From: a bacterium
Lineage (GTDB): Bacteria; Cyanobacteriota; Vampirovibrionia; Gastranaerophilales; Gastranaerophilaceae
DNA: 43,320 nucleotides
Direction of reading: 5' to 3'
NCBI GenBank assembly: GCA_017467605.1
Contig: JAFUSQ010000038.1
Location: forward strand, 1 to 43,320
Made by a program: the position numbers and the translations under genes. Shown piece by piece: positions 18,094-39,823 of the stretch; the stretch's first letter is position 1; each line of letters begins with the position of its first letter. The notes below the pieces were generated by a model that was given only the letters and a program-made list of their open reading frames with translations, did no database searches and had not been told where the DNA came from.

Positions 18094-18175
18094 TTTACAT
18101 TTTGGTTTTTGTATATTAAAATAATTTTGGCAAGATTTGCTACTCGAAAAAGAACGGTTTATCCGTTCTTTTTTT
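18094..18175 (+). promoter_or_regulatory. rimP-nusA promoter followed by early terminator (possible attenuator)
   Basis: TTTACA (18094-18099), a 17-bp spacer and TAAAAT (18117-18122) predict a start near 18129. About 20 nt later AAAGAACGG (18149-18157) pairs with CCGTTCTTT (18163-18171), followed by a T run to 18175, all before the rimP ATG at 18199. If the promoter is real, the terminator lies in the operon leader and could attenuate it. Otherwise it simply ends the coiled-coil gene. Confidence 0.6.
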
Positions 18176-18198: not shown

Positions 18199-18681
18199 AT
18201 GAAGCAAGATATTAACAGATTAGAAATTTTAAACGCTATTACGCCATTAATCGAGAATACTGCAATGCGTTTCAATTTAATTCCCATTGAAATTGATTTT
18301 GCCAAAGAAAATCATCGCTGGTTTTTGAGAATATTTTTGTATTCAAAAGAACGAAACATAACACTTGATGATTGTGAAAATGTTACTCGCAGTCTTGAAG
18401 GGTTTTTAGATGAATTAATTCCTGTAAAATATTATCTTGAAGTTTCATCACCCGGCTTAGAACGGAAATTCAAATCCGAAAAAGAATTCTTCATCTTCAA
18501 AGGGAAGCGAATTAGTATTAAGCTGAAAGAACCGCTTGAAGGTGAAACCGAAAAAATCTTCAAAGGTGAACTTGTTGACTACGATACAAATGAAGGGTTA
18601 ACATTCTTCCGATTTGATGACGGTGTGGAACTCAAAATCCCGAAAGAAAATATTCAATCAGCTAAGTTGTATATAGACTAA
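18199..18681 (+). CDS. rimP: Ribosome maturation factor RimP
   Basis: A 160-residue RimP, needed for 30S subunit maturation. The family motif YYLEVSSPGLERKF lies near residue 80, in the middle as expected, followed by the Sm-like C-terminal domain (FKGKRISIKL and FKGELVDYD). The ATG at 18199 is used because the upstream in-frame codons include the terminator hairpin. AAAGG lies 9 nt before it. The gene precedes nusA as in most bacteria, but an inserted four-helix-bundle cassette separates them. Confidence 0.93.
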   Translation: MKQDINRLEILNAITPLIENTAMRFNLIPIEIDFAKENHRWFLRIFLYSKERNITLDDCENVTRSLEGFLDELIPVKYYLEVSSPGLERKFKSEKEFFIFKGKRISIKLKEPLEGETEKIFKGELVDYDTNEGLTFFRFDDGVELKIPKENIQSAKLYID

Positions 18682-18684
18682 AAA

Positions 18685-19151
18685 GTTAGTAAGACCGCTA
18701 AGACCGTTAAGATGGAAAGTCTGTTAATAATTATAGGGCAAGTAAATGTACTACAAAAATTTAGAAGCTTGGAAAGAAGCGATAATATTAGTAAAACAGA
18801 TATATATAAAAACAAAACAATTTCCTCAAGAGGAATTGTATGGGTTAACATCACAAATAAAACGGGCAGTAATTTCAATTCCATCAAATATTGCTGAAGG
18901 AATGTCAAGATATTCCGATAATGATAAATCTAGATTTATTGATATTGCAATTGGTTCACTTGCTGAAGTTGAAACACAATTGATAATTTCCAAAGAATTA
19001 GGATTTGTAGAGGATATTGATGAGGAATTACAATCTATAAATAAAATTAAGGCTTTGGTTATTGGATTAAAAAAATACTTAAACAAAGAAAAAGGAGAAT
19101 TAATAACGTAAAGGACTTATCAGACTTAACGGTCTTAGCGGTCTTAACAAC
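18685..19151. mobile_element. IVS-like cassette with inverted-repeat ends between rimP and nusA
   Basis: The left end (18691-18711) AAGACCGCTAAGACCGTTAA plus G is repeated exactly, inverted, at 19125-19145 (21 bp identical). The similarity extends outward and into an AGTCTG block. Each arm contains a tandem TAAGACCG. The repeats enclose a single gene for a four-helix-bundle protein. This layout matches the intervening sequences known from 23S rRNA genes, but here it sits between two protein genes. No target-site duplication is obvious. Confidence 0.65.
18746..19111 (+). CDS. Four-helix bundle protein (23S rRNA IVS-type)
   Basis: A 121-residue protein of the IVP / four helix bundle family (TIGR02436 type). 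Typical text includes YKNLEAWKEAIILVKQIY at the start and ISIPSNIAEGMSRYS in the middle, with SLAEVETQLIISKELGF after it. Family members are encoded in intervening sequences of 23S rRNA and elsewhere, and their function is unknown. The gene is bounded on both sides by a 21-bp perfect inverted repeat, and no second gene is in the cassette. It lies in the same direction as rimP and nusA, so the operon can still be transcribed through. Confidence 0.9.
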   Translation: MYYKNLEAWKEAIILVKQIYIKTKQFPQEELYGLTSQIKRAVISIPSNIAEGMSRYSDNDKSRFIDIAIGSLAEVETQLIISKELGFVEDIDEELQSINKIKALVIGLKKYLNKEKGELIT

Positions 19152-19189
19152 TTTTGATAATGATTAATAGAAAAGGAGAATAAACAAAA

Positions 19190-20440
19190 ATGATTAAAAT
19201 CGGAGCAGGAAACTTAAACGAAGTTTTCGAAGAACTGGAAAGAGAAAAAGGTATTTCAAAAGAAGTTGTTATATCTTCATTATGTGATGCAATGGTTGCA
19301 GCTTACAAAAAACATTTAAGAATTAAAGAAATCGAAAATGTTGAAGCATATTTAGATGAACAATCAGGCGAAATCGGGATTTTTAAAGGTAAAACCGTTG
19401 TTGATTCTGTTGAAGATCCTGATAATGAAATTTCATTGATCGAAGCAAAAGAAATTGACGAAGATGTTGAATTGGGTGATGAAGTTAAATTGGAAGTAAC
19501 ACCTGAACAATTCGGCAGAATTGCAGCCCAAGCAGCTAATCAAGTTCTGACTCAAAGAATTAGAGAAGCTGAAAGAAATCTTGTATTAAATGAGTTCTTA
19601 GATAAAAAAGGTACTCTAATCACAGGTATAATCCAAAAAGTTGACGACAGACGTAATGTTATAGTCAATATCGGCAAAACAGATGCGATTATGCCAAGAA
19701 AAGAACAAATCCCCGGAGAATACTATAAACCCGGTAACAGAATCAGAGTTTTTGTTCTTAATGTAAAAGAAACAACAAGACTTCCTCAAGTTATCGTTTC
19801 TCACGGTCATGCTGAAATTGTCAGAGAATTATTTGAACTTGAAGTTCCTGAAATTGAAGACGGAATTGTAGAAATTAAATCAATTTCGCGTGAAGCAGGA
19901 TATAGAACCAAAATTGCAGTATGGTCAAATGATCCGGAAGTAGATTCTGTAGGAGCTTGTATCGGACCTCGCGGAAGCCGTATTCAAACTATTGTTTCAG
20001 AACTTAAAAATGAAAAAATTGATATTGTAAGATATTCTGAAGATCCTGTTGAATATATTGTAAACGCATTATCACCTGCAAGAGTTGTTTCTGTTGATAT
20101 TATGGCAGATGACGAATATGCTCATGAAGCTTTAGTTGTTGTTCCTGATGATCAATTGTCACTTGCAATAGGCCGTGAAGGTCAAAATGTAAGATTGGCT
20201 CACAAATTGACAGGTTGGAAAATTGATATTAAATCAGTTTCTCAAATGGAGCAAGCAGAAAGTCAAAATATTCAAAATTATGAATATGATGAAGAATTAA
20301 CAGAAGAATCTGTAGAAAATGTTGTAGATCCTGATGAACTTCAAGAAGAAATTGAAGAAGAAATGAATCAACAAGCTTTAGATGAAGGTGATTTGGCAGA
20401 AGAATCTTCTGAAGAAACAGTTGAAGAAACTGAAGAATAG
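19190..20440 (+). CDS. nusA: Transcription termination/antitermination factor NusA
   Basis: A 416-residue NusA that binds RNA polymerase and modulates pausing and termination. Domains: the N-terminal RNAP-binding domain (1-125), S1 domain (about 135-205, GIIQKVDDRRNVIVNIG), and two KH domains (about 205-345) with the signatures EAGYRTKIAV, GACIGPRGSRIQTI and LSLAIGREGQNVRLA. The last 65 residues are a Glu-rich acidic tail without the AR repeats of enteric NusA. AAAGGAG precedes the ATG. infB and the YlxR gene that often follow are absent; the transcript ends at 20462-20501. Confidence 0.96.
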   Translation: MIKIGAGNLNEVFEELEREKGISKEVVISSLCDAMVAAYKKHLRIKEIENVEAYLDEQSGEIGIFKGKTVVDSVEDPDNEISLIEAKEIDEDVELGDEVKLEVTPEQFGRIAAQAANQVLTQRIREAERNLVLNEFLDKKGTLITGIIQKVDDRRNVIVNIGKTDAIMPRKEQIPGEYYKPGNRIRVFVLNVKETTRLPQVIVSHGHAEIVRELFELEVPEIEDGIVEIKSISREAGYRTKIAVWSNDPEVDSVGACIGPRGSRIQTIVSELKNEKIDIVRYSEDPVEYIVNALSPARVVSVDIMADDEYAHEALVVVPDDQLSLAIGREGQNVRLAHKLTGWKIDIKSVSQMEQAESQNIQNYEYDEELTEESVENVVDPDELQEEIEEEMNQQALDEGDLAEESSEETVEETEE

Positions 20441-39342: not shown

Positions 39343-39370
39343 AAAGTAATTATAACACACGCAAAAAAAT

Positions 39371-39777
39371 AAAGCAGCCCGTAAGCCGCATTTTGTTTTA
39401 GGTAATCATCTATCTTGTATTAGGATTACTCCTAATCTCCAGCGATTTCTTCCGAAGTGGGCGAACAACCTTTAAAACCTTCGACTCAATCTTGCACCCG
39501 ACCGGGGTTTACCTAGCAGGTACCTTCCGATACCTCTGGTGAAGCTCTTAACTCACCGTTGCACCATCGCCTGTGATAACTAGTTTTATTAGAATGAGGG
39601 CTAACCCCTCACCCTGCCCTCTCCCCAAGGAGAGGGGAAAGTTATCCATTGGCAGTCTACATTTCTGTGGCACTATCCGCCAATTCGCATCGCCCGGAGT
39701 TTCTCCGGCGGTCTGTTCTTGGGTGTACGGACTTTCCTCACCTGAATTGATTTCAGGCGCGATTACCCGACTGCTTT
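39371..39777 (-). ncRNA. rnpB: RNase P RNA
   Basis: The minus strand shows the conserved bacterial RNase P RNA elements: AAAGCAG at the 5' end paired with CTGCTTT at the 3' end (P1), GAGGAAAGTCCG (P4 5' strand), GTGCCACAGAAA, GGTGCAACGGTGAG, GGTAAACCCC and near the 3' end ACAAAATGCGGCTTACGGGC (P4 3' strand). The 3' end runs into a T-tract, so P1 plus T7 may serve as terminator. A -10 TATAAT lies just upstream of the 5' end. A dispersed genomic repeat occupies a variable stem (39596-39640). It would process tRNA 5' ends with the RnpA protein. Confidence 0.95.
39596..39640. repeat. Dispersed repeat within rnpB
   Basis: CCCTCACCCTGCCCTCTCCC and the following AAGGAGAGGGGA form the same palindromic unit found near 21700, 25525 and 29001. 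Within rnpB it sits between the paired GATAACT and AGTTATC, extending one stem (probably P9 of the type A fold). Confidence 0.75.
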
Positions 39778-39823
39778 ATTTAATTATATTGTCATGCTGA
39801 ATTTATTTCAGCATCTGTCATTG

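Follow-up and report, generated by a model that had tools for sequence, protein, structure and literature searches.

An IVP-family gene between tandem-repeat arms: a candidate mobile cassette of bacterial operon spacers

The cassette between rimP and nusA

The window, by which we mean the entire 43,320 nt stretch of Gastranaerophilaceae DNA analyzed here (source genome G000, that of an uncultured bacterium of the gut), contains a rimP-nusA junction with a spacer of 508 bp, most of it occupied by a cassette of about 475 bp (18681..19155; all features of this junction are on the + strand). Beginning from rimP (18199..18681; Pfam RimP_N, E 8.7e-17; DUF150_C, E 1.9e-8), whose TAA stop codon, as read from the sequence, directly adjoins the cassette, the features are the 5' arm of an inverted repeat (18681..18711), composed of tandem TAAGACCG(C/T) units and containing 4 sense-strand stop codons; a gene encoding a 121 residue protein of the IVP (S23, four-helix-bundle) family, co-directional with both rimP and nusA (18746..19111); the 3' arm (19125..19155), which is the reverse complement of the 5' arm at 29 of 31 positions; a Shine-Dalgarno-like AAAAGGAG just 3' of the cassette (19171..19178), a similar site being kept in the empty spacers described below; and nusA (19190..20440; NusA_N, E 3.8e-38; KH_5, E 1.4e-29). 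The arms are 31 nt each, 94% complementary and separated by 413 nt. The original prediction described an exact inverted repeat with internal tandem repeats bracketing a single IVP-family gene, and the anatomy agrees apart from the length of the exact match, which is 22 nt (18690-18711 and 19125-19146) rather than 21.

Family assignment of the IVP open reading frame is straightforward (PF05635, E 2.6e-33; TIGR02436, E 7.9e-32), and the nearest solved structure is XCC0516 (2gsc, E 8.1e-25). It is the sole open reading frame of the cassette by both the ORF list and family search, which found no transposase there, and G000 has no other IVP gene. The cassette does not lie inside a 23S rRNA gene: its neighbors are rimP and nusA, and an Rfam search found no rRNA in the window. 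The inverted repeat is not attributable to chance: flank-to-flank alignment scored 25, whereas 1000 first-order shuffles averaged 8.9 and reached at most 15, and among the 43 open reading frames in the window only the IVP gene has flanks scoring at least 15. The predicted RNA fold of the cassette (-118.4 kcal/mol, z = -6.5) has its arms paired, and G000 encodes an RNase III gene. An IVP-specific promoter is not evident, promoter-like matches being no more common than in shuffled sequence. Two further RNA features were noted in the window: a hairpin followed by a T-run just upstream of rimP (18145-18175, AAAGAACGGTTTATCCGTTCTTTTTTT), absent from the output of the scan tool and perhaps a terminator or leader attenuator, and a bacterial class A RNase P RNA on the opposite strand (39366-39778, -).

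The IVP protein is under purifying selection. Counts of differences by codon position between the cassettes of different species (for example 14/8/48 and 24/18/67) show an excess at third positions, which indicates that the gene is maintained for its protein product; sites are saturated for a formal dN/dS.

Empty sites and recurrence at operon junctions

Comparison of the rimP-nusA junction among the 41 nusA-bearing species of the genus shows that the cassette is a presence/absence insertion. Of all the genomes used here, most are metagenome assemblies. The junction is empty in 31 species, with spacers of 14-65 bp (a count that includes G001, where rimP went unrecognized by the script and its end and a short spacer are visible in the printed sequence). 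It holds an IVP cassette in 7 species (G000, G005, G023, G030, G032, G033 and G061; that of G032 is cut by a contig end), a small GIY-YIG cassette in two (G025, G062) and a short insert, a 142-bp repeat, in one (G035). With the junction filled by the IVP cassette in seven species, empty in thirty-one and clean at its edges, we rejected an assembly artefact. The GIY-YIG nuclease-like gene (approximately 96-117 aa; L093 in G025, L144 in G062) is itself flanked by GTCATTCAGAG...GAAGAATC repeats, and has relatives in most genomes of the genus.

A cleaner filled and empty pair occurs outside rimP-nusA. In species G015 a 472-bp IVP cassette immediately follows the stop codon of a sulfatase-like gene and lies upstream of the next ribosome-binding site; its sister species G004, with flanks approximately 94% identical, is empty at that place. 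The edges are AT-rich and share a 6-8 nt match that is ambiguous as a target-site duplication. Empty sites in relatives, which the original prediction suggested looking for, are accordingly found at two places, and together with the IVP cassettes at other loci they support its proposal of an IVS-type (intervening sequence) insertion and mobile unit; the distribution is the opposite of one fixed at a single site across the order with no copies elsewhere.

Cassette-bearing species are scattered over the nusA tree, and the IVP tree does not track it. The disagreement, at modest support, argues against one ancestral insertion at rimP-nusA followed by simple descent; with that support, repeated gain, loss and transfer at the junction appear indistinguishable. 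The G061 and G032 cassettes have similar 3' ends at their common site; after comparison of the flanks, horizontal transfer between the two is no more than a possibility.

The original prediction also described the insertion as one in a core operon and suggested a search for further copies of the repeat accompanied by IVP genes. IVP cassettes do exist at other loci in other genomes. The rimP-nusA insertion is not a one-off, since operon spacers of bacteria from different phyla contain cassettes built in the same way. In other genera of the family, IVP cassettes occur at rimP-nusA at six loci (L207, L209, L211, L216, L218 and L228, with only the rimP side read for L216), and three loci lie between groES and groEL (L205, L206, L027). 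Further sites, named by the look of their translated ends rather than by family search, include guaB-guaA, nuoC-nuoD, gmd-fcl (fucose synthase) and other operons in Proteobacteria, Rickettsiales, Verrucomicrobia-type and Planctomycetes genomes. IVP/S23 proteins were found in 129 of the 291 sampled genomes of the phylum, and an Rfam search of 20 related cassette loci found no known structured RNA, rRNA included.

Placement follows a nearly strict pattern. Leaving out 23 Chryseobacterium loci, both neighbors are on the IVP strand at 33 of 36 loci, and in most cases the cassette is located between a stop codon and the start codon that follows. At seven loci (L017, L046, L050, L051, L064, L069, L082) the downstream start codon touches or nears the IVP stop, so that translation of the downstream gene runs through the 3' arm and adds residues to the N-terminus of its protein. 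Some enzyme N-termini (e.g. of fucose synthase) apparently derive from a 3' arm in this way, as tandem peptides like SNSTLNSKPQTPDP, with L075 also among the loci. The Chryseobacterium genes occupy one fixed place in 23 species, which looks like vertical inheritance.

The cyanobacterium G174 (L230-L240) contains roughly ten copies, mostly 96-99% identical, of an element of about 560-890 bp with the terminal repeat CTGAYGTTACGCA and a 7-bp duplication, TTANTAA. The IVP gene that it carries is interrupted by another insert. We rejected these copies as direct proof of cassette mobility, as they are passengers of the terminal-repeat element; they do establish that other elements can carry IVP genes.

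Arm repeats and gene-less mini-elements

The arms are tandem repeats of 7-9 nt with no common sequence across cassettes. Within the genus the unit is TAAGACCG in G000, ATAAGTAGC in G005, GATAAGTNN in G033 and G061, and GTGAATAAG in G030; elsewhere it is GTGACGC in an acidobacterium, TTTAACGA in a cloacimonete and AGGCAAT in a planctomycete. The two arms of a cassette nonetheless match each other. Pairing scores have a median of 20.5 for an arm and its own partner versus 8 for cross-pairs, with the own partner best in most cassettes. Strong inverted flanks occur at 18 of 44 IVP loci versus 9 of 272 neighboring open reading frames (Fisher p 2e-11), and outside Chryseobacterium approximately 40% of IVP loci have strong inverted arms, the remainder having weak ones or none. 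The arms also differ in coding properties: sense-strand stop codons occur at 0.117 per nt in the 5' arm versus 0.050 in the 3' arm (0.067 being expected from composition alone, in the first data set), and the 5' arm exceeds the 3' arm at 30 loci, with the reverse at 3 (p 1.4e-6). These p-values are guides, as related species are not independent points.

In a finding that goes beyond the original prediction, the arms belong to a dispersed repeat that is specific to the genome and varies between species. The arm motif TAAGACCGNTAAGACC occurs at 21 exact places in G000, 19 of them outside the cassette, and nowhere in 45 congeners; likewise, TAAGACCG arrays are dispersed in G000 only. Most of the TAAGACCGNTAAGACC sites fall within a non-coding repeat roughly 80 nt long, which in some cases has a pair of inverted arms. 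This repeat (CAATATTGTTCAAAGTCCGTTAAGACCG...CGGTGCTAAAGCACAGATTAATAAATCGTAA) was seen on G000 contigs C6, C18, C30, C33, C45, C52 and C79 (L118-L137), often joined to GTCATTGCGAG...GAAGAATC repeats and in several copies at contig ends. A scan of 1.18 Mb of G004 gave period-7 arrays of the AGTGAAT family in 11 of 11 cases, the same family as the IVP arms of that species. Arms always copied from a resident genome repeat would account for G000, G004 and G033; they do not account for G015, whose cassette arms (GGCGATAAG) are unlike its resident arrays, so that newly arrived cassettes seem to come with arms of their own.

Dispersed copies of GATAAGTNNGATAAGT number 42 in G033, 23 in G021, 16 in G061, 13 in G027 and 9 in G000. 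Several are mini-elements of approximately 110-150 bp that lack an IVP gene and have inverted arms, located in core operon spacers, among them groES-groEL (G000, G061), rpmF-plsX (G000, G021, G033), and the same sulfatase site that holds the IVP cassette in G015. Those of G000, G033 and G061 have different arm units around a common core with a GTGC-GCAC hairpin, and two IVP cassettes (L216, L218) have a similar hairpin in their leaders. On the strength of this resemblance the mini-elements look like internal-deletion derivatives of IVP cassettes; the reverse, capture of the gene by a mini-element, is also possible. The mini-element stem shows so few compensatory base changes (one pair) that covariation does not decide the matter.

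A probable IVS-type element in operon transcripts

The closest known system is the 23S rRNA IVS with an S23/IVP open reading frame, known in Coxiella and Leptospira; RNase III excises such stems from rRNA (PMC4990558). In Coxiella tandem heptamers adjoin the open reading frame, mobility has been proposed for the IVS, and excision removes the putative ribosome-binding region (PMC4990558). Already known, then, are rRNA IVSs, their inverted repeats, their open reading frame, their suspected mobility and the Coxiella heptamers beside that frame. The present cassette shares with the rRNA IVS its protein family, a length of approximately 430-475 nt, a terminal inverted repeat of approximately 28-31 bp and an open reading frame in the loop. 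It differs in lying in the spacers of protein-gene operons, in the purifying selection on its gene, and in arms that vary by species and match dispersed repeats; unlike in Coxiella, the region preceding its ATG lies inside the stem-loop and would survive excision. The open-access papers that were searched give no account of IVP cassettes as an operon-spacer class, of a link between IVP genes and short inverted arms of tandem repeats, or of the stop-codon asymmetry.

Other elements resemble the cassette in part. Terminal inverted repeats, presence/absence and short gene-less derivatives are also features of MITEs and insertion sequences, but here there is no transposase, the 7-9 nt tandem arms have no fixed sequence, the placement is strongly oriented and intercistronic, and the evidence for a target duplication is ambiguous. 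REP/REPIN sequences with RAYT genes are likewise short palindromic intergenic repeats, copies of which flank a single-copy gene; that gene encodes a Y1 transposase rather than an IVP four-helix bundle, and the present repeats are tandem arrays. STRR heptamers are short tandem 7-mers dispersed in cyanobacterial intergenic regions, similar in those respects and found in a related phylum; to our knowledge they are not tied to IVP genes and do not form inverted pairs.

We consider it reasonably probable that this is a small mobile IVS-type cassette of operon gaps that is carried on operon transcripts, in which it forms a long RNA stem. Because no IVP promoter is evident and co-direction with the neighbors is nearly strict, expression driven by the operon transcript is the simplest account. 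From the anatomy, the arms would pair in that transcript as a stem of approximately 31 bp that encloses the IVP coding sequence. The stop-rich 5' arm would close upstream reading frames and the stop-poor 3' arm would leave the downstream start open, so that insertion would do little harm to essential host genes. By analogy with rRNA, cleavage of the stem by RNase III would probably release the IVP message from those on either side; this RNA-stem idea, present in the original prediction, fits the predicted fold and the co-directional placement. The IVP protein, a probable pentamer, may bind arm RNA or DNA, and its most likely role is to maintain or move the cassette. The cassette holds no transposase and has no linked reverse transcriptase, and no mobility enzyme was found.

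The alternative that survives best, which we nevertheless think unlikely, makes the repeats the mobile thing and the gene a passenger, with inverted tandem arrays spreading via a host or transposase route and occasionally catching an IVP gene between their arms. Gene-less arms are indeed far more common than arms with an IVP gene, the G004 arrays all share the family of its IVP arms, TAAGACCG arrays are confined to G000, and in one cyanobacterium an IVP gene and its arms travel within an element that has terminal repeats and a 7-bp duplication. Against it, purifying selection acts on the gene, its direction nearly always agrees with that of its neighbors, IVP genes of many phyla have arms on both sides, and the G015 cassette, whose arms are unlike the usual arrays of that genome, points to arms that travel with the gene; G021, which has arrays and no IVP gene, may have lost it.

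Less probable still, and in our judgment doubtful, is a host function in which the gene or stem is kept to tune the RimP:NusA ratio (or that of other neighbors), for example as an mRNA RNase III site. Reuse of the same core junctions (rimP-nusA, groES-groEL, rpmF-plsX) in different genera or species, in one orientation, favors such a function, as does the fixed position in 23 Chryseobacterium species, yet most congeners lack the cassette at rimP-nusA, arm sequence is not conserved, and the neighbors range from ribosomal proteins to sugar enzymes.

Avd of diversity-generating retroelements is a four-helix-bundle pentamer, the same structural kind as IVP. A retroelement-like unit with IVP as the partner of a reverse transcriptase, suggested by the relationship of the IVP fold to that of Avd and by four reverse-transcriptase matches in G000 (all on other contigs), is very improbable, as no reverse transcriptase adjoins the cassette, unlike Avd, 5 of the 7 rimP-nusA cassette species (G005, G030, G032, G033, G061) have no RVT_1 match, and RVT_1 presence is uncorrelated with the cassette.

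Returning to the mobile cassette, a wider generalization is possible, and we offer it tentatively: IVP genes outside rRNA may largely be the coding form of a widespread intercistronic mobile element, made nearly translation-neutral by its stop-rich 5' arm, stop-poor 3' arm, lack of a promoter and RNA stem, with arms of short tandem repeats whose sequence is rewritten in each genome, concertedly on the two sides, and with the 7-9-nt tandem repeats scattered through many bacterial genomes as its footprints. If true, it would link the IVP family to these puzzling repeats, provide a natural case of a low-cost insertion into essential operons, and make two older ideas about rRNA IVSs testable, namely that they are mobile and that their protein serves mobility. 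The results suggest that an IVS-type element once known mainly from rRNA genes also lives in mRNAs; the IVP/S23 family carries no known function, and mobile cassettes, if they are most of its non-rRNA copies, would give it a biology.
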